DNA of 64,000 nt. It comes from Candidatus Eisenbacteria bacterium. GTDB lineage: Bacteria; Eisenbacteria; RBG-16-71-46; CAIMUX01; JAHJDP01. Shown here in pieces: positions 36,663 to 45,608 of the stretch (the stretch's first letter is position 1; the number at the start of each line of letters is the position of its first letter). The notes below the pieces were generated by a model, which saw only the letters and a list, made by a program, of their open reading frames with translations, did no database searches and was not told the origin of the DNA. Location of the stretch: contig JAHJDP010000046.1 in NCBI GenBank assembly GCA_018831195.1, forward strand, positions 1 to 64,000, given 5' to 3'. A program made the position numbers and the translations under genes.

Positions 36663-37361
36663 TTAAGACGGCGGGGGATCTCCCCCTTTCCCGCGAAGGA
36701 TGTAACCGATTCCGGGCGCCGTGATGATGTAGCGAGGCTGCGCGGGGTCGCTCTCGACCTTCTGCCGCAGCCGGCGGACGAGCTGTTTAAGAAGCTGGCG
36801 GTCCCCCTGGCCGGAGTACCCCCAGACATGTCCCGTGATGCGCTCCGCGCTCAGCGGCCGCTCCGCGTTCGCCACGAGGAGATGCAGCAGGCGACTCTCC
36901 AAATGTGTGAGATGCACGGGGTTTCCACCGGACACCCGAACCGATTGCGATTCGATATCAAGTTCGATCTCTCCCGATTGCAGCGCCCCCGGACGCTCCC
37001 GCCCCGCCCGGCGCAGCAGCGCCCCCACGCGGGCGACCAGGGTGCGAGGGCTGAACGGCTTGGTCAGGTAATCATCGGCGCCCAAATCGAGTCCCCGGAT
37101 CTGATCGGATTCGTCCGATCGCACGGAGAGCACGAGGATGGGCGTGGTCGATTCATCCTCCCGGATTTTCCGAATGACGTCGAATCCACTCATTTTCGGC
37201 ATGTTCAAGTCCAGGATGATCAAATCGGGCGCCTCCTCGTCCATCATCTTCAGCGCCATAATTCCGTCCGAAGCCTCGAGTGCGAGGTACCCCTCTTGGC
37301 GGAGGGCATACGCGATCAATCCGCGCAACGTCATATCATCATCGACAACGAGGATCTTCAT
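36663..37361 (-). CDS. PhoB/OmpR-family response regulator
   Basis: A 232-residue regulator starting MKILVVDDDMTLRGL, at an ATG overlapping the kinase stop by four bases. The receiver domain has acidic pocket Asp7-Asp9, phospho-acceptor Asp51 (LIILDLNMPKMSG) and Lys in DDYLTKPFSPRTL. The winged-helix effector (residues 135-225) ends with RYIITAPGIGYILRG, typical of the OmpR/PhoB class. Last gene of the transporter-two-component operon; the direct repeats upstream of the operon are a candidate binding site. Confidence 0.94.
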   Translation of the reverse strand: MKILVVDDDMTLRGLIAYALRQEGYLALEASDGIMALKMMDEEAPDLIILDLNMPKMSGFDVIRKIREDESTTPILVLSVRSDESDQIRGLDLGADDYLTKPFSPRTLVARVGALLRRAGRERPGALQSGEIELDIESQSVRVSGGNPVHLTHLESRLLHLLVANAERPLSAERITGHVWGYSGQGDRQLLKQLVRRLRQKVESDPAQPRYIITAPGIGYILRGKGGDPPPS

Positions 37362-39475
37362 GGCTCGACCGTGGGCGTGTCGCTGATGGGGAGATAAACA
37401 GAGAAGCGCGAGCCCGAAGCGGCGCCGGGCGTCGGCTCGACGGTGACGCGCCCGCCATGGCGCGTCACGATGGATTTCACAATCCACAGACCGAGACCAA
37501 TCCCGCTCTCCTCCGGTTCCGAACCGGAAGAGCGCACGAAGCGCTCGAAGACCATATCCCCGTCGCCATGCGGGAATCCGGTGCCCTCGTCATCGATCCA
37601 GAGTTGGATCTGATCGGCGTGCACACGCCCGCCAATCCGAATCTTGGAATCGGCCGGTGCGAACTTGCTCGCGTTGGCGAGCAGGTTCACAAAGACCTGA
37701 ACCAATCGAGGCGGATCGCCCATGATCGGCGGCAGGGGGAAGGGCAGCTCCGATTCCAGAATTTGCCCGCGCTGTGTGATCAGCGGCGCCGTCATCGACA
37801 GAGCGTCCTCCACCACGGTGTCGAGGGTGACGCTCTGACGCCGGATGGCCTTCTGGCCGGCGTCGATCCGCACGCTCTCCAGCAGATTGTCGATCAGCCA
37901 GGTCAGCCGTAGAGTACCCTGTTCGAGCGAGCGCACCAGGGGTTCCAAATTCGCGCCCGGCTCACGAGCGATGCGGTCGCGAAGCAGCTCGATGGAGGCG
38001 AGTTGGGCGGAGAGAGGCGTCCGAAACTCGTGCGAGATGTTGGCCAGCACCGTATCGCGCAGGCGCCGGGTCACCTCCACCTCGGTTTCATCGCGGATCA
38101 TCTGAAACTGGAGAACCTCGGAGGGATCCGCTCCCGCCGGGGAGGGCATGGCGCTGGTGATCACCACGGTCTGTTGCCGCTCGCCGCGCCTCAGCCACAG
38201 ATGCTCGGTAGCGCGGACCGTGCCGCGGAAGCGTGCGTGTACGATCGGACAACGATCTGTGCAGGGGCGTTTGCCATCGATCGGTTCGGGATCAAGCACG
38301 TCACCGCAGAACCGGCCGATAATATCTTCCGGGCGGAGACCCATAAGCTCGGCTCCCTGCGGGTTCACATAGCGGATCTTGCGCTCGCGATCGACGGTGA
38401 AGACTCCCTCGACGATGCCCCCCAGAACCGCTTCCGCCTCGGCGCGCCGCTGGCGGAGTTCCGCCGTGAGCGCCACGAGGCGATGACGCATTTCTTCCAT
38501 GGTACCGCTCAGGGTCCCGATCTCGGCTCCAGCCTCCCGCTGGATCGGCGTTTCGAGGTCACCGCGTCCGATGCGAGCCGCGGCCGCCGTCAGAACACGC
38601 AGCGGCCGCGCCAGCCGCCGTCCCACCAGAACGCTGACGGCCGCCGCCAGCAGCGCCACAAACAAAGCGAGGAGAAAGAGCGATCGCGCCAGGGTACGGA
38701 TGGAGGCGGCGACGCCCCGGGCCGACAGATGGGCCGCGACCACCCCTGGGATGTTGCCGGATGGGGAGTGCAGCGGCAGGATAGCCAGGTAGGCGTCCTC
38801 GTCGGCGATGTACTGTTGGGTGGAATTTCCCGTGGCCAGGGCGCGCTGGCATGCCACATTCCGCAAACCGGACGGCATGACATCGCGCGGTATGATCGCG
38901 ATCTCCACTCCGACCTGCGCCGCCACGATCTGCGCGAACTCTTCGTCGAGCCATCGTGCGGCCACGGCGGCTGCGGCGTTATCGCCGTCACGAACCGGAA
39001 TCACCGCGCCGGCGATGAGCGGCTGATGCGGTTCGGGCTGCAACAGGACTTGTTCCTTCGAGCCCGCCGCCAGAAGGATTGCGTTCCAGTCGAGCGCCGC
39101 GCCGGCGCTCGCCACGATGCCGGAGCTGTCCACCAGGGCGCATCCCGCCAGGTTGCCCGTTTCGCCGAACTGGCTCAAGAAGGCGACGAGACCTTTCCGG
39201 TCAGAGGAGTGATACAACTGCAGCAGAGTGGGCCGTTGGGCCAGCAGGCGCGTTGAGGTGAGGACGTCGATCTCCGCATACTCCACCGCCCGGAGAGCGC
39301 TCCCGCCCGCGGTCTCGACCCGGCTCAGCGCCTGCTCGTCGGCGAGCCGGCGCAGAACCTGGCTCCCGCCCGCGGTCACGACCAGTACGGCTCCCGCCAC
39401 CAGCCCGACGTTGACCAGGATGAGGACACTGCCAAGTCCGAGGCGACGCCGGACGGAGTTTCTGGCTGAGCTCAT
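37358..39475 (-). CDS. Membrane sensor histidine kinase with periplasmic sensor, HAMP and Cys-containing PAS
   Basis: 705 residues. TM1 is about 13-35, a periplasmic CACHE-like sensor about 40-262, TM2 about 264-286 and HAMP about 286-340. PAS (345-465) carries Cys390, Cys405 and Cys409. HisKA has His482 in NISHEFRTPLS. The catalytic ATPase domain shows N-box VNLLANASKFAP, DDEGTGFP and GIGLGLWIVKSI. The start overlaps cysW by four bases and the end overlaps the regulator by four, so kinase, regulator and transporter are coupled. The ligand is probably the transported anion or its state; this is inference. Confidence 0.93.
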   Translation of the reverse strand: MSSARNSVRRRLGLGSVLILVNVGLVAGAVLVVTAGGSQVLRRLADEQALSRVETAGGSALRAVEYAEIDVLTSTRLLAQRPTLLQLYHSSDRKGLVAFLSQFGETGNLAGCALVDSSGIVASAGAALDWNAILLAAGSKEQVLLQPEPHQPLIAGAVIPVRDGDNAAAAVAARWLDEEFAQIVAAQVGVEIAIIPRDVMPSGLRNVACQRALATGNSTQQYIADEDAYLAILPLHSPSGNIPGVVAAHLSARGVAASIRTLARSLFLLALFVALLAAAVSVLVGRRLARPLRVLTAAAARIGRGDLETPIQREAGAEIGTLSGTMEEMRHRLVALTAELRQRRAEAEAVLGGIVEGVFTVDRERKIRYVNPQGAELMGLRPEDIIGRFCGDVLDPEPIDGKRPCTDRCPIVHARFRGTVRATEHLWLRRGERQQTVVITSAMPSPAGADPSEVLQFQMIRDETEVEVTRRLRDTVLANISHEFRTPLSAQLASIELLRDRIAREPGANLEPLVRSLEQGTLRLTWLIDNLLESVRIDAGQKAIRRQSVTLDTVVEDALSMTAPLITQRGQILESELPFPLPPIMGDPPRLVQVFVNLLANASKFAPADSKIRIGGRVHADQIQLWIDDEGTGFPHGDGDMVFERFVRSSGSEPEESGIGLGLWIVKSIVTRHGGRVTVEPTPGAASGSRFSVYLPISDTPTVEP

Positions 39476-40332
39476 CGTGTCCCCCGTCGCGAGTACCGCT
39501 CCAACATCGCTTTCAGGATCAGGGTTGTCAGGGCCAGGGCCGTGAGGATGGTAGCCACCGCGAACGCCGCCGCAAACTGGTATTCATTGTAGAGGACCTC
39601 GACATGGAGCGGCAGAGTGTTGGTTCTCCCGCGAATGTGCCCTGATACGACGGATACCGCCCCGAACTCACCCATGGCCCGAGCATTGCACAATATGCAA
39701 CCGTAAAGAAGTCCCCAGCGCATGGGAGGCAAGCTTACTTGGAAGAAGGTCCGCCAGCCACCGGCCCCAAGCGTGAGCGCGGCCTGTTCTTCCTGTGTTC
39801 CCCGCGATTCCAGGATTGGAATCAACTCACGCGCAACAAAGGGCACCGTCACAAAGAGGGTGGCCAAGATCACTCCCGGCGGAGCGAAGAGGATGCGGAT
39901 TCCCATTTTGGTGAGCCATGGCGCCAGAGGACCCTGGGCGCCGAACAGGAGCACGAAACTGAGCCCGGCAACGACCGGCGACACGCTGAAGGGCACATCG
40001 ATCATTGTTAAGAGGAGCTGCCGCCCGCGAAATGTGAACCGGGTCAGCAGCCACGCGGCGGCCACGCCGAAGACGAGATTGAGGGGAACGGCGACCACGG
40101 CCGCCAGCAGGGTGAGCCGCACCGCTGCTAGGGTCATCGGATCCGCCAGCGCGGCGGCGTAGGCCGACGCTCCCTCTGAAAAGGCCTTGCTGAAGACGAG
40201 GATCAGCGGCAAAACGAGAAACATTCCAAGAAAGGCGACGGCCGCGCTGACCAAGAGGCGCCGCACGAGGGGTGGCTCACCCAGCCCTGGAAGGCTGTGC
40301 CGCTCGACGACGATGTGACGGGTCAGCTTCAT
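39472..40332 (-). CDS. cysW: Sulfate/thiosulfate ABC transporter permease CysW
   Basis: An inner-membrane permease, 286 residues from ATG 40332 (MKLTRHIVVERHSLPGLGEP). Six hydrophobic segments and the CysW pattern DVPFSVSPVVAGLSFVLLFG are visible. The EAA loop LTLGAGGWRTFFQVSLPPMRWGL is the ATPase contact. RAMGEFGAVSVVSGHIRG and LPLHVEVLYNEY are family signatures. It follows cysT after seven bases and overlaps the kinase gene. Confidence 0.93.
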   Translation of the reverse strand: MKLTRHIVVERHSLPGLGEPPLVRRLLVSAAVAFLGMFLVLPLILVFSKAFSEGASAYAAALADPMTLAAVRLTLLAAVVAVPLNLVFGVAAAWLLTRFTFRGRQLLLTMIDVPFSVSPVVAGLSFVLLFGAQGPLAPWLTKMGIRILFAPPGVILATLFVTVPFVARELIPILESRGTQEEQAALTLGAGGWRTFFQVSLPPMRWGLLYGCILCNARAMGEFGAVSVVSGHIRGRTNTLPLHVEVLYNEYQFAAAFAVATILTALALTTLILKAMLERYSRRGTR

Positions 40333-40339
40333 GTTCACC

Positions 40340-41212
40340 TCAGGCACTTTGCATCGCTCTTCGCGCCTGCCGCGACAACAGATTGATGGCCAGCAGCAGG
40401 CCGAAGGAGGCCACCAGGAAAACCGAGGCGATAGCTGTGGCGGCCGCGTAGTCGTACTGCTCAAGCTGGATCACGATGAGGAGGGGTGTGATTTCCGATC
40501 GCATCGGGATATTGCCGGCGATGAAGATCACCGATCCATACTCTCCCAGCCCGCGCGCCAGGGCGAGTGTGAATCCCGTGAAGAGTGACGGGAGCAGCTC
40601 GGGCAGGATCACGCGCCGGAAGGTGAACCACTGCTTCGCTCCCATGCTCGCCGCCGCCTCCTCCAGCGTCGGATCAAGATCATGAAGCACGGGTTGCACA
40701 GATCGCACCACAAAGGGCAGCCCGATGAAGATAAGGGCCAAAGTCACCCCGAGCGGGGTGTAGACAGCATGGATCCCGGCTGCCTCGAGGAACCTGCCAA
40801 TCCATCCGTCCCGTGCAAAGAGGGCGGTGAGGACGATGCCGGCGACAGCGGTTGGCAGCGCGAAGGGCAGGTCGACGAGTGCATCGAGCAGGCGCCTTCC
40901 CGGAAAGCGGTATCGCTCCAGGACCCAGGCGATGATGAATCCAAAAACCGCATTGATGGCCGCGGCCGCCAGGGCCGCCAAAAAACTCAGCCGATAGGCC
41001 GCCAGTGTGCGAGGGGCCGTCAGTGCTTCAAGGAAGGCCGCCGGCCCCATCGACGCTGCCCGCAGGAAGACAAACGCGAGCGGAATCAGAACCAGCAGGG
41101 ACAAATACGAGACCGTGATGCCGAAGCTCAAGCCAAATCCGGGAAGCAAACGACGCCGGTGCCTGCGAACCGGTTCCCGGGGCGGGCCGGGCTCTAAGCC
41201 GGGCTGCTTCAC
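40340..41212 (-). CDS. cysT: Sulfate/thiosulfate ABC transporter permease CysT
   Basis: A 290-residue partner permease (CysT/CysU). Its basic N-terminus has Pro/Arg clusters, then six membrane segments. Signatures are [20 protein letters not shown], the EAA loop [21 protein letters not shown], and [20 protein letters not shown]. Its start overlaps the binding-protein stop by four bases. Confidence 0.93.
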
Positions 41213-42216
41213 TTGCCCACTCCGTAGATGTCGTCAAAGATGCCGCCGTTGGCGAAATGCCGCTTCTGGGCTTGCGCCCATCCGCCGAATTCGACCTCCA
41301 CGTTGAGCATCTCCACATGCGGAAACTGGGAAGCAAACTCTTGGGCGATCTCCGGCAGCCAGGGGCGATAAAAATGGCGGGCCGCAATCCTCTGTCCTTC
41401 CGGAGAGTAGAGATACTGCACGTAGGCCAGGGCCGCGTCATACGTTCCATGCCTCTTCACGACGGCGTCGACCAAGGTGACGGGGGGTTCAGCCAGGATG
41501 GAAATCGAGGGGACGACGATTTCGAAGTCATCCGCGTGCCGTCCCCGGATGGCCAGCATCGCCTCATTTTCCCAGGCCAGAAGGACATCCCCGATCCCGC
41601 GTTCGACGAAGGTGATGGTGGAACCGCGCGCTCCCGTATCCAGTATCGGAACATTGGCGAAAAGCCGGCTCACGAATTGCCTCGCCGCCGTCTCGTCTCC
41701 ATCGGATTGGCGCAGCGCGTATCCCCAGGCCGCCAGGTAATTCCAGCGGGCGCCCCCCGATGTCTTTGGGTTCGGTGTGATCACGGACACGCCGGGGCGA
41801 ACGAGATCGTTCCAGTCCCGGATCTGCTTCGGGTTACCCTTGTGCACTAGGAAGACGATGGTGGAGGTGTAGGGACAGCTGCGGTTAGGAAGGCGATCCT
41901 GCCAGTCGGCGGCGAGCAGGCCGGTGCGGGCGATGGCGTCGATGTCGTAGGCGAGAGCCAGGGTGATCACGTCGGCCTCCAGGCCGTCAATGACGGATCG
42001 GGCTTGCTTGCCGGAACCGCCGTGCGATTGATCAATGCGGATGCTCTTTCCGGTCTCCTTCTGCCAATGGGCCGCGAAGGCCGCGTTAAACTCCTGGTAC
42101 AGCTCGCGCGTCGGGTCGTAAGAGACGTTGAGAAGAACAAGCTCCTTGTCTCCGGCGATCGCCGCAGAAGACCCAACCAGCGCCAATACAAAAATGATCA
42201 CCCCGATCTGCTGCAT
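41209..42216 (-). CDS. sbp: Periplasmic sulfate-binding protein
   Basis: The 335-residue product has a signal peptide ([15 protein letters not shown]). AAGGAGG seven bases upstream fixes the ATG at 42216. Sulfate-binding signatures of Sbp/CysP are clear: [58 protein letters not shown], and [20 protein letters not shown]. These residues form the dehydrated-oxyanion site. It delivers the anion to CysTW and the CysA-Usp fusion. Confidence 0.94.
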
Positions 42217-42239
42217 AACCAATCCTCCTTAGCTGCCTG

Positions 42240-43496
42240 TTACAAAGAAACCTGAAGACGCTGCCACAGGAGCCGCTCGGTATCGCGATCTCCGGCACCG
42301 CCCCCGCCGTCGAATCGGGTCTCTTCGTAACCCATCGCCACGGTCACGTTGGCGTCGAGGTGCCACCGCACCCCGCCACTCATGGAAAAAGCCCGCCGCG
42401 CCGCGTTCTCCGGATCTGCAAAGGCCGGGAAGGCATCGTCATCGAGCTGGATATGCGCCAGCCGGCCCACCAACTCCAACGCACCCATCGCGCCCGTGGC
42501 CCGAGAGAAGGGGTGGTGCGGATTGACACCGCGATAGGTCCGAGCATCGCGGGTGAGCATCACACTGAGGGAGACCTGCCAGGCCTGGTGCTGAAGGCGC
42601 TCGGTGAGATCGCCGATTCGAACCTCTTGCTCCGATATCACAAACTCCGCCTGGCCGCCGGCCCGCCCGCCATACAGCGAGATCTGCGGCGCAAGACGGC
42701 GGCGCGCGCCATCGGCCACAGCGCCGGAGGCTGTTTCGGTCGCGGCGCGATACGAAAAGAATTTGAGTTGTCCGGAGGTCCGATACGACGGAAGGTTGGC
42801 GGCGCCCTGCGTTCGGCCGGTCGTTCCTCCGACGCCGACTGCTAATCCTTTTAGGAAGGCCGGCCCTCGGTCCTGCCATGGATGCAGGATAATGCGGCCG
42901 AGGATCTCCTTGTCCGAATCGGCGTCATGATACAGGCTGGCCCCGTCGGCGGCCCCGTTGAACAGGCCGAGATCGTAGGAGATAAGGCCGGCGTCTCCGG
43001 TCCAGAGGACTCCAATGTCACGATTCGGCGTCAGGTTCGAGACCAAAGAGCGCTCGATAAGATGCAGCGCTGATGCCGATTGCATTCGTTCCGCCGAAAG
43101 GGGCACCTTGAATCGCCCCGCCCGGATCCGCCCTGCTTTACCGAACCGAAGATCCATATATCCGTCTTCAAGCTGGCTCTTGCCGTCACCAAATTCCGGC
43201 ATCACCCGCAGCATCACCCACGACCCGGCGCTGTACTCCACGATCGGCTGCAAGCGCCGGATGAGGAAGGCGTTGGGAGCGGGGAGATTGTCCGTTCCCT
43301 TTGCGAAGAAACGGCCGTCAAACTGCGCGTAGCCACGCAAACGCAAGGCATATTGGCCGTCGGCTGAAACGATCGCGACGCCGCGCCCGTCCACTTCCAC
43401 TGTGGCAGGATCAGCACCGTGCGAAGGAGGAGGCCCCCAAAGGAGTGTGATCGCGATGCCGATGCCCATCGTTTGAAGGGCCCGAGGGATTCTCAT
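42240..43496 (-). CDS. OprP/OprO-type outer-membrane porin
   Basis: A 418-residue product with a signal peptide (residues 1-27). Alternating beta strands are typical of the phosphate-selective porin family: ALRLRGYAQFDGRFFAKG, AFLIRRLQPIVEYSAGSWVMLRVMPEFG, LEDGYMDLRF, IRAGRFKVPLSAERMQS, LVSNLTPNRDIGVLW. The C-terminus ends in a strand (LLWQRLQVSL). It lies between the ATPase and binding-protein genes with about 25-base gaps, so it probably provides outer-membrane anion uptake for this transporter. Confidence 0.87.
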   Translation of the reverse strand: MRIPRALQTMGIGIAITLLWGPPPSHGADPATVEVDGRGVAIVSADGQYALRLRGYAQFDGRFFAKGTDNLPAPNAFLIRRLQPIVEYSAGSWVMLRVMPEFGDGKSQLEDGYMDLRFGKAGRIRAGRFKVPLSAERMQSASALHLIERSLVSNLTPNRDIGVLWTGDAGLISYDLGLFNGAADGASLYHDADSDKEILGRIILHPWQDRGPAFLKGLAVGVGGTTGRTQGAANLPSYRTSGQLKFFSYRAATETASGAVADGARRRLAPQISLYGGRAGGQAEFVISEQEVRIGDLTERLQHQAWQVSLSVMLTRDARTYRGVNPHHPFSRATGAMGALELVGRLAHIQLDDDAFPAFADPENAARRAFSMSGGVRWHLDANVTVAMGYEETRFDGGGGAGDRDTERLLWQRLQVSL

Positions 43497-43521: not shown

Positions 43522-45393
43522 TCATTTTTTAAGGATCCGTGGGCGGACCAGAAGAACCGCTCGATCCCTGATCTCCTCGAGAAGATCACGAACCTGTCGG
43601 CTGAGCGCGAATCCTCGTCCACGCGCGGCGACAGGAACGCCTAAGACCGCCAAGTCATGCCGCCGTCCGCCGAGTTCGGCCAGGATCTGTTCCTTCACCT
43701 CGCCCGAGCGCAAGACGCTCCGCGAAGGGACTCCCCACAGCGAGAGTGTTCGTTCCCCCGCGGCGAGGAATCGACGGGCCTGTTCGAGAGCGGGGTCCGG
43801 GGTTCGGTCCCCGAGTACCGTGAGGATGGTCGCCTCAGCGCCGAGATGCCGGACAAGGCGGCCCGCGAATTGGACATCTTCCTTAGCCGACTCACCCACG
43901 GTCACACAGATAAGCGCCTGGGTCGGCAGGGAGGCGCCGGGGGGTACGAGCAGTAGATGATGCTCGGCGATGGAGAGCAGGTGCTCCGCGAGCCGCGCCA
44001 CGCCACGGGCCGGCCGGGCGTGCACCACCAGGTCATAAGGGTTCCATTCCGTCTCGGCCAGAACCGCGTCTGGGAGGGGATCGGCGCTCATCCTCGGTTC
44101 TTGCAGGAGATCGGAGCCGGTCAGGCCGCGCAGTTCCTGGAGCGCGGACCGAAGCCCTTCCCCATCCAAGCCTTGGGCGAGCATTGTCACCCGCGCATGC
44201 GCCAGGCTGGCCAACCGTCCGCCCATCTCCAGGGCTGAATGGGCCGCCGGCGATCCATCCGTCACCACGAGGAACGACATTCCGGGATGTGTCAGCGCAT
44301 GGATCCGGCGGACGCCGATCCAGGCCGTATCGCCAGGCTGGAGTGGAAAGCGCAGGGCATAGTCCTGAGGCCGCGTGGCCTCGATCAGCATGGAGTCGCT
44401 CCCGAAGGGGGCCGGAGGTGAAATGGCCCGCACGCCGGGGAGCTTGGGCAGCTGCAGTCGAAGCCGCTGGTGTCCGCCGGCGAAACTTGCCTCCACAACC
44501 CGAGCCTCGCCCAGCAGCGGCTCCTCGAGGGCTTCGCGCGCATTGCGGACGACGACATCCTCAGGACGAAAGAGGACCTGAACCCGCCGGTAGAGGGTGT
44601 TGTGCTCCACAACGGCCGAGCTGAGGGGAAAGTGTAACGGTCCCAACCGGACGCCGTCGGAGGCGCATTCTCCAACCATCAAGTTGGCGCTGCCGAGGAA
44701 TGTGGCCACGAACTCGGTCTGAGGGCGCAGGTAGAGCTCATCGGGCGCTCCGACCTCCAGCAAGCGCCCCGAATGCATGACACCGATGCGATCGGCGAGC
44801 GCGAACGCCTCTTCCTGATCGTGCGTCACGAAGATCGTCGGAATCGAGAGCTCCCGCTGAATGCTGCGGATGGCGCCTCGCAATTCTGCACGGATGGGTG
44901 GATCCAGCGCGCCGAAAGGTTCATCGAGGAGCAGCACATCGGGTTGGCAAGCCAGCGCGCGCGCTAGTGCGACCCGCTGCTGCTGGCCGCCGGAGAGCTG
45001 CCGGGGATAGCGGTCGCCAAGTCCCGAGAGACCAACGAGTTCGAGCAGTTCCTCGCGCCGGTGCAGGCGCTCGATATGGGGCATCTTGCGGATGCGCAGG
45101 ACGAACTCGATGTTGGCCGCAACCGTCATCTGCTGGAAGAGCGCGTAGTTTTGGAATACAAAACCGATGCGGCGCGCCTGCGGCGGGAGGTCGGTGATAT
45201 CGCGGCCTCGAATGGAGACCGAGCCGGAGTCGACCTCCGTGAGACCGGCGATCATGCGGAGAACCGTGCTTTTGCCGCTTCCACTGGGACCCAAGAGGAC
45301 GAAGAGTTCACCCTCGAGAACCTCCAAGGAGAGTCCATGGACCGCGGTGTGATCACGGTACTGCTTGACCAAATGACGCAACGAGATAGACAT
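43522..45393 (-). CDS. CysA-type ABC ATPase fused to tandem universal-stress-protein domains
   Basis: 623 residues from ATG 45393. Residues 1-235 are a CysA-like ATPase: Walker A GPSGSGKST (35-43), Q-loop Gln81, signature LSGGQ (133-137), Walker B LLLDEP (154-159), His191. A TOBE-like regulatory region spans about 240-365. Residues 370-495 (SFLVVTDGSPAAHSALEMGG...) and 500-623 (ALICVTVGESAKEDVQFAGR...HDLAVLGVPVAARGRGF...RDRAVLLVRP) are two UspA folds. Ordinary CysA ends near 350-365. The ATP-binding glycines of UspA are only partly visible. First gene of the seven-gene operon. Confidence 0.9.
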   Translation of the reverse strand: MSISLRHLVKQYRDHTAVHGLSLEVLEGELFVLLGPSGSGKSTVLRMIAGLTEVDSGSVSIRGRDITDLPPQARRIGFVFQNYALFQQMTVAANIEFVLRIRKMPHIERLHRREELLELVGLSGLGDRYPRQLSGGQQQRVALARALACQPDVLLLDEPFGALDPPIRAELRGAIRSIQRELSIPTIFVTHDQEEAFALADRIGVMHSGRLLEVGAPDELYLRPQTEFVATFLGSANLMVGECASDGVRLGPLHFPLSSAVVEHNTLYRRVQVLFRPEDVVVRNAREALEEPLLGEARVVEASFAGGHQRLRLQLPKLPGVRAISPPAPFGSDSMLIEATRPQDYALRFPLQPGDTAWIGVRRIHALTHPGMSFLVVTDGSPAAHSALEMGGRLASLAHARVTMLAQGLDGEGLRSALQELRGLTGSDLLQEPRMSADPLPDAVLAETEWNPYDLVVHARPARGVARLAEHLLSIAEHHLLLVPPGASLPTQALICVTVGESAKEDVQFAGRLVRHLGAEATILTVLGDRTPDPALEQARRFLAAGERTLSLWGVPSRSVLRSGEVKEQILAELGGRRHDLAVLGVPVAARGRGFALSRQVRDLLEEIRDRAVLLVRPRILKK

Positions 45394-45464
45394 CGAGGCT
45401 CTGCTCCTATGACCGCCAAAGAGCGCACTGCATGAATACTGGCCGGGCCACATTCACTGAGCCG

Positions 45465-45470
45465 AGGATA
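45465..45470 (-). promoter_or_regulatory. Candidate -10 element of the cysA-usp operon
   Basis: On the minus strand TATCCT matches four of six -10 consensus bases and lies ten bases after the last hexamer repeat, the spacing seen in PhoB-type activated promoters that lack a -35. Weak by itself. Confidence 0.35.
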
Positions 45471-45479
45471 TCAGGCGAC

Positions 45480-45519
45480 GGTTACAAGGCTGGTGACGCT
45501 GCGGTGACAAAGTGGTTAT
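45480..45519 (-). promoter_or_regulatory. Four direct repeats, Pho-box-like operator
   Basis: On the plus strand hexamers GGTTAC, GGTGAC, GGTGAC and GGTTAT begin at 45480, 45492, 45503 and 45514, so the spacing is 12, 11 and 11 bp, about one helical turn each. Read in the direction of the operon they appear as GTAACC/GTCACC, close to the GTCA-type half-sites of OmpR/PhoB regulators. The operon encodes such a regulator as its last gene, so autoregulation is inferred. Confidence 0.6.
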
Positions 45520-45608
45520 ATTTTTGCGGAGTCGGCATGAACCATGCCGGATTTTTCTGATCCAAAAAAATTCGCGTGCCTTCCGACGTTGAGCGGGCCC
45601 GCTGCCGT

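Follow-up and report, generated by a model that had tools for sequence, protein, structure and literature searches.

Phosphate limitation is met by the textbook two-component switch PhoBR, and sulfate uptake is usually described under LysR-type regulators sensing cytoplasmic metabolites. CysB/Cbl are of this LysR type, respond to a cytoplasmic inducer and regulate the cys/sbp sulfate transport genes. A limited literature search found no two-component system controlling sulfate ABC transport and no description of the operator reported here. In the PhoB site, an 11-bp sequence is directly repeated to give a 22-bp box (PMC3978041). In E. coli, the phoA promoter, whose sequence was checked directly before phoA, reads GTCACG-9-TATAGT.

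A sulfate importer operon and its upstream repeats

In the window (the whole stretch of 64,000 nucleotides that was analysed), an operon on the minus strand contains, in this order, cysA-usp, a porin gene, sbp, cysT, cysW, and genes for a histidine kinase (HK) and a response regulator (RR) (Table 1). Sbp, CysT, and CysW exceed the curated cut-offs for components of the sulfate ABC transporter (Sbp-CysTW), and sulfate transport is predicted for the system. For the cysA-usp ATPase, the sulfate- and PhnT2-like NCBIfam models all scored below cut-off, and no single equivalog was reached. The C-terminal Usp-like extension of this CysA-type ATPase (window 43522-45393) is kept in Acidobacteriota and Xanthomonadaceae, and Usp-extended cysA genes are also found in operons that have no HK-RR pair and carry cysA last. 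The periplasmic part of the kinase was modelled with ten orthologs (mean pLDDT of 87.7). A Foldseek search with the model returned Cache sensor domains from chemoreceptors and from kinases, LuxQ among them, at TM-scores of about 0.45–0.6, so that the sensor assignment is one of fold class only.

Table 1. Coordinates of the operon genes and upstream elements in the window; half-sites are written as on the operon strand, with start-to-start spacings
Feature	Positions	Strand	Basis
Predicted operator ATAACC-11-GTCACC-11-GTCACC-12-GTAACC	45480–45519	-	Read directly; unique in genome; conserved before orthologous operons
Half-site 1 (distal), ATAACC	45514–45519	-	Plus-strand reading GGTTAT
Half-site 2, GTCACC	45503–45508	-	Plus-strand reading GGTGAC; GTMACC here in most orthologs
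Half-site 3, GTCACC	45492–45497	-	Plus-strand reading GGTGAC; degenerate in orthologs (CGACTGAC-type)
Half-site 4 (promoter-proximal, -35 position), GTAACC	45480–45485	-	Plus-strand reading GGTTAC
-10-like element, TATCCT	45465–45470	-	Sequence; 9 nt after half-site 4
Likely ribosome-binding site (AGGAG) for cysA-usp	45404–45408	-	Sequence; inference
CysA-like ABC ATPase with C-terminal Usp region, 623 aa	43522–45393	-	PF00005 1.9e-36; PF00582 25.5 bits, cut-off 24
Porin_O_P family outer-membrane porin	42240–43496	-	PF07396 2e-16
Sbp-type sulfate-binding protein	41209–42222	-	NF008022 509 bits, cut-off 288; TIGR00971 474, cut-off 155.5
Permease CysT	40340–41212	-	TIGR02139 387.6 bits, cut-off 246.1
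Permease CysW	39472–40332	-	TIGR02140 383.9 bits, cut-off 329.1
Sensor histidine kinase: periplasmic double-Cache-like sensor, HAMP, PAS, HisKA, HATPase_c	37358–39475	-	Profiles; structure model
OmpR/PhoB-type response regulator, proposed operator ligand	36663–37361	-	PF00072, PF00486; recognition helix DRQLLKQLVRRLRQK

Four hexamers at spacings of 12, 11, and 11 bp on the plus strand, about 90 bp from cysA-usp and with a TATCCT element beyond them, had been described in a sequence-only reading of this DNA. The hexamers and spacings are located as claimed, and the two distances were measured as 86 nt from the array to the ATG at 45393 and 9 nt to TATCCT. Read on the operon strand, the start-to-start spacing is 11, 11, and 12, and head-to-tail copies of one word recur about once per helical turn, the arrangement of an OmpR/PhoB-type phased direct-repeat operator. 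The genome was also scanned for further copies, as the same reading had proposed: with up to three mismatches allowed, the four-half-site pattern matched once in 5,239,398 bases on both strands, at the window site, and its reversed control gave no matches in the whole 5.24 Mb. A scan of the same genome for TGTMACN5TGTMAC produced fewer matches (217/239) than its reversed control (345/333) and is therefore uninformative on any regulon.

On the plus strand, 13 bp beyond the distal half-site, a terminator-like hairpin (CGGCATG-AAC-CATGCCG) followed by ATTTTT is located at window positions 45532-45550. No gene on the plus strand appears to depend on it, and it may thus be what is left of a terminator, or a further binding site.

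Conservation before orthologous operons

The same operon was found first in an Acidobacteria MAG and in a Luteimonas by a contig scan; genome searches with the C-terminal part of the ATPase added G009 and G006, both belonging to the window's order, and an alignment of this part added more Acidobacteriota and five more Xanthomonadaceae. The gene content of the compared operons was mapped by tblastn. As the sequence-only reading expected of a genuine operator, the repeats recur before these orthologous operons. In all three lineages (Acidobacteriota, Xanthomonadaceae, and the window's order), the cysA-usp/sbp/cysT/cysW/HK/RR orthologs are preceded by GTMACC half-sites with the same 11/11/12 phasing and the same distance to the -10 element. 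The full layout is present in Xanthomonadaceae, and sites 2, 3, and 4 are the clearest in Acidobacteriota and G009. Examples are GTAACC-11-GTCACC-11-(ACGACT)-12-GTGACC (L220), GTCACC-11-(TCGACT)-12-GTCACC (L210), and GTCACC-11-TCGACC-12-GTGACC (G009).

A strict rule, requiring a GTVACC pair 23 apart or an RTMACC pair 11 or 34 apart no more than 300 bp upstream, was passed by 14 of the 20 cysA-first operons with HK-RR clusters, where Markov shuffles predict 0.01. None of the same 20 upstream regions passed on the reverse strand, and none of 13 cysA-usp operons without HK-RR did so, either before the first gene or before cysA. The one-sided hypergeometric probability of 14/20 versus 0/13 is about 5e-5, a value to be taken as a guide only, since the sequences are related and not independent. 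Some of the six failing operons have degenerate or shifted repeats; for two of the six (L205 and L211) contig ends hide the RR status, and the L148 contig ends within the kinase gene. One cysA-usp-sbp-cysT-cysW operon (L212, genome G119), in which neither HK nor RR was found, has no operator, and it looks like the HK-RR pair and the operator were lost together. Several Acidobacteriota relatives carry, in some cases in addition to the distal array, a GTNACC pair, 11 bp apart, near the cysA start (L204, -33/-22; L205, -45/-34; L208, -39/-28).

The position of the array relative to the promoter is conserved as well. A [TG]ANNNT hexamer follows the last half-site by 9–10 nt in 16 of 17 operators, the window's included, for half-site registers assigned by eye, compared with 2.4% expected per site in shuffles. 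In the window, the last half-site occupies the -35 region, and its distance to the -10 element is the same as in E. coli phoA (9 nt in both).

When a sequence model was trained on 13 orthologous operators, with the window and G009 left out, it assigned 7.3 bits (E 0.37) to the window site, the second best score in the window, and did not recover this site at genome scale. The low score results from half-site 3, which is GTCACC here versus CGACTGAC in the others; half-sites, phasing, and the -10 distance are common to the window operator and its relatives, while the third site differs.

In G790, the model detected a second operator, ATAACC-11-GTCACC-11-GCCACT-12-ATAACC (E 1.9e-6; L254 about 1501-1544; C12:135938-135981), located 51 nt before a cysteine dioxygenase gene (PF05995, 3.6e-17). 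The next gene encodes a LysR-type protein that looks CysB-like and may itself be under operator control. This copy before a cysteine dioxygenase-LysR operon links the system to sulfur, in one case only. G455 also has a second strong site (L279 about 1501-1556; C6:177979-178034), a near-duplicate of the operator and leader of the sulfate operon, with no evident gene downstream of it. Weak matches (E > 0.001) on the inspected contigs of G047, G048, G176, and G193 lie inside or among coding sequences and were rejected as noise.

Mode of action and identity of the regulator

The occurrence of the same layout before matching operons of unrelated bacteria makes it very probable that the repeats are a control site of the operon's own switch. 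We accordingly favour, with considerable confidence, an operator of the operon's own PhoB-type RR that would activate the importer and HK-RR genes in a class-II manner with positive autoregulation. The co-encoded sensor kinase would phosphorylate the RR, probably under limitation of sulfate or another oxyanion, and the phosphorylated RR would bind the four phased half-sites as head-to-tail dimers. The location of the last half-site at the -35 position, 9–10 bp before the -10 element, leads us to propose that the bound RR brings in RNA polymerase by the class-II mechanism known for PhoB at phoA, so that both the importer and the HK-RR pair itself would be expressed more strongly. We infer that the RR binds and that it activates and does not repress, and likewise infer the signal and a transcript reaching as far as the regulator gene. 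An operator for the operon's own RR had been predicted from the sequence, and this prediction has gained support from the orthologs, from the absence of the repeats where the RR is lacking, from the winged helix, and from the recognition helix.

Repression of the operon by the cognate regulator, or a combination of activation and repression, appears unlikely. The extra half-site pair near the start codon in L204, L205, and L208 could block transcription, but the window has no proximal pair, and its last half-site takes the -35 position without a recognisable -35 box, as in PhoB-activated promoters.

Still more improbable is that the housekeeping PhoB binds the site as a genuine Pho box, which would place the sulfate/oxyanion importer and the Porin_O_P porin in the phosphate regulon. 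In favour of this reading, E. coli phoA has the same TMAC core in its half-sites and the same -10 geometry, and the porin belongs to a family whose name refers to phosphate selectivity. A search with the PhoB model revealed three full-length OmpR/PhoB-type regulators in the genome: that of this operon, one on C19 adjoining an efflux-like ABC cluster, and one on C117 that heads a phoB-phoR-porin-pstSCAB-phoU cluster. However, the repeats before the porin-pstS genes of the latter cluster are CTAACA-11-CTAACA plus CTAACG (L150, G000 C117, 11908-12018); the CTAACA repeats are likely the true Pho box of this genome, and the GTMACC half-site of the window thus fails as a Pho box of its own PhoB. The operators also accompany the RR encoded with the sulfate importer and are absent from operons of RR-less relatives, and, among the inspected loci, none of the best operator-model matches in relatives fell at a pst locus. 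Likewise, the recognition-helix core LKQLVxRxRxK is conserved in 17 regulators of the sulfate cluster and is unlike that of PhoB on C117 (IDVQVAGLRKR); the C19 regulator has IDSLVSRLRRK. Since the GTMACC word and the helix core travel together, the cognate regulator is favoured over PhoB. The operon RR scored 184 bits against the PhoB model TIGR02154, below the cut-off of 296.2, which discriminates poorly here because the C117 PhoB itself reaches only 231.5 bits. The resemblance to a Pho box pointed out in the sequence-only reading therefore holds for the phasing and the -10 design and breaks down for the word, which is not that of the pst repeats of the genome's own PhoB. Judging by the sequence, the site is Pho-box-like in design, as the match of repeats and -10 geometry to phoA suggests, and is probably no site for PhoB itself.

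A chance or simple tandem array of short, low-complexity hexamers is hardly credible, even though the earlier three-repeat pattern is matched at one further place in the genome, by a phased trio that is only a simple 12-bp tandem repeat (contig C100), since the spacers of the window array are unlike in sequence, its four-site pattern is unique, and the phasing is kept across three lineages.

Comparison with known systems

Taken further, the data could point to a distinct and widely dispersed PhoBR-like system for sulfate, with a double-Cache kinase and its own word GTMACC, controlling uptake and, in some hosts, regulators of sulfur metabolism; we offer this broader reading tentatively, at somewhat less than even confidence. 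The kinase would respond to sulfate in the periplasm or, as in the LuxQ-LuxP pair, to the sulfate-binding protein. If this is true, the kinase, regulator, and operator that accompany the importer as a conserved set in at least three lineages would be for sulfate what PhoBR is for phosphate. The operator has a short, well-defined sequence, and the matched recognition helix and half-site would be useful for studying how the specificity of PhoB-type regulators diverged.

With CysB/Cbl-type control the system shares its target, the sulfate transport genes, but it works through a membrane-bound kinase and a regulator of PhoB type, both encoded within the operon. The nearest solved relatives of the RR by sequence belong to the RegX3/MtrA/OmpR family (2oqr RegX3, 3e-48; 2gwr MtrA, 1.6e-45); the helix core of RegX3 is LDVHVKRLRSK versus LKQLVxRxRxK in the operon RR, which is tied to sulfate transport. 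The E. coli Pho box at phoA likewise consists of head-to-tail repeats with an 11-bp period oriented along transcription and leaves 9 nt between its last half-site and the -10 element, whereas the window has GTMACC half-sites instead of TGTCAT/C with A/G following, arranged as four in an 11/11/12 register, another regulator, and sulfate-uptake genes downstream. The PhoB/PhoR-pst system on C117 of the same genome also combines a two-component pair with an ABC oxyanion importer, a porin, and phased repeats upstream, and it differs from the operon in its phosphate genes, its CTAACA repeats, and its recognition helix.
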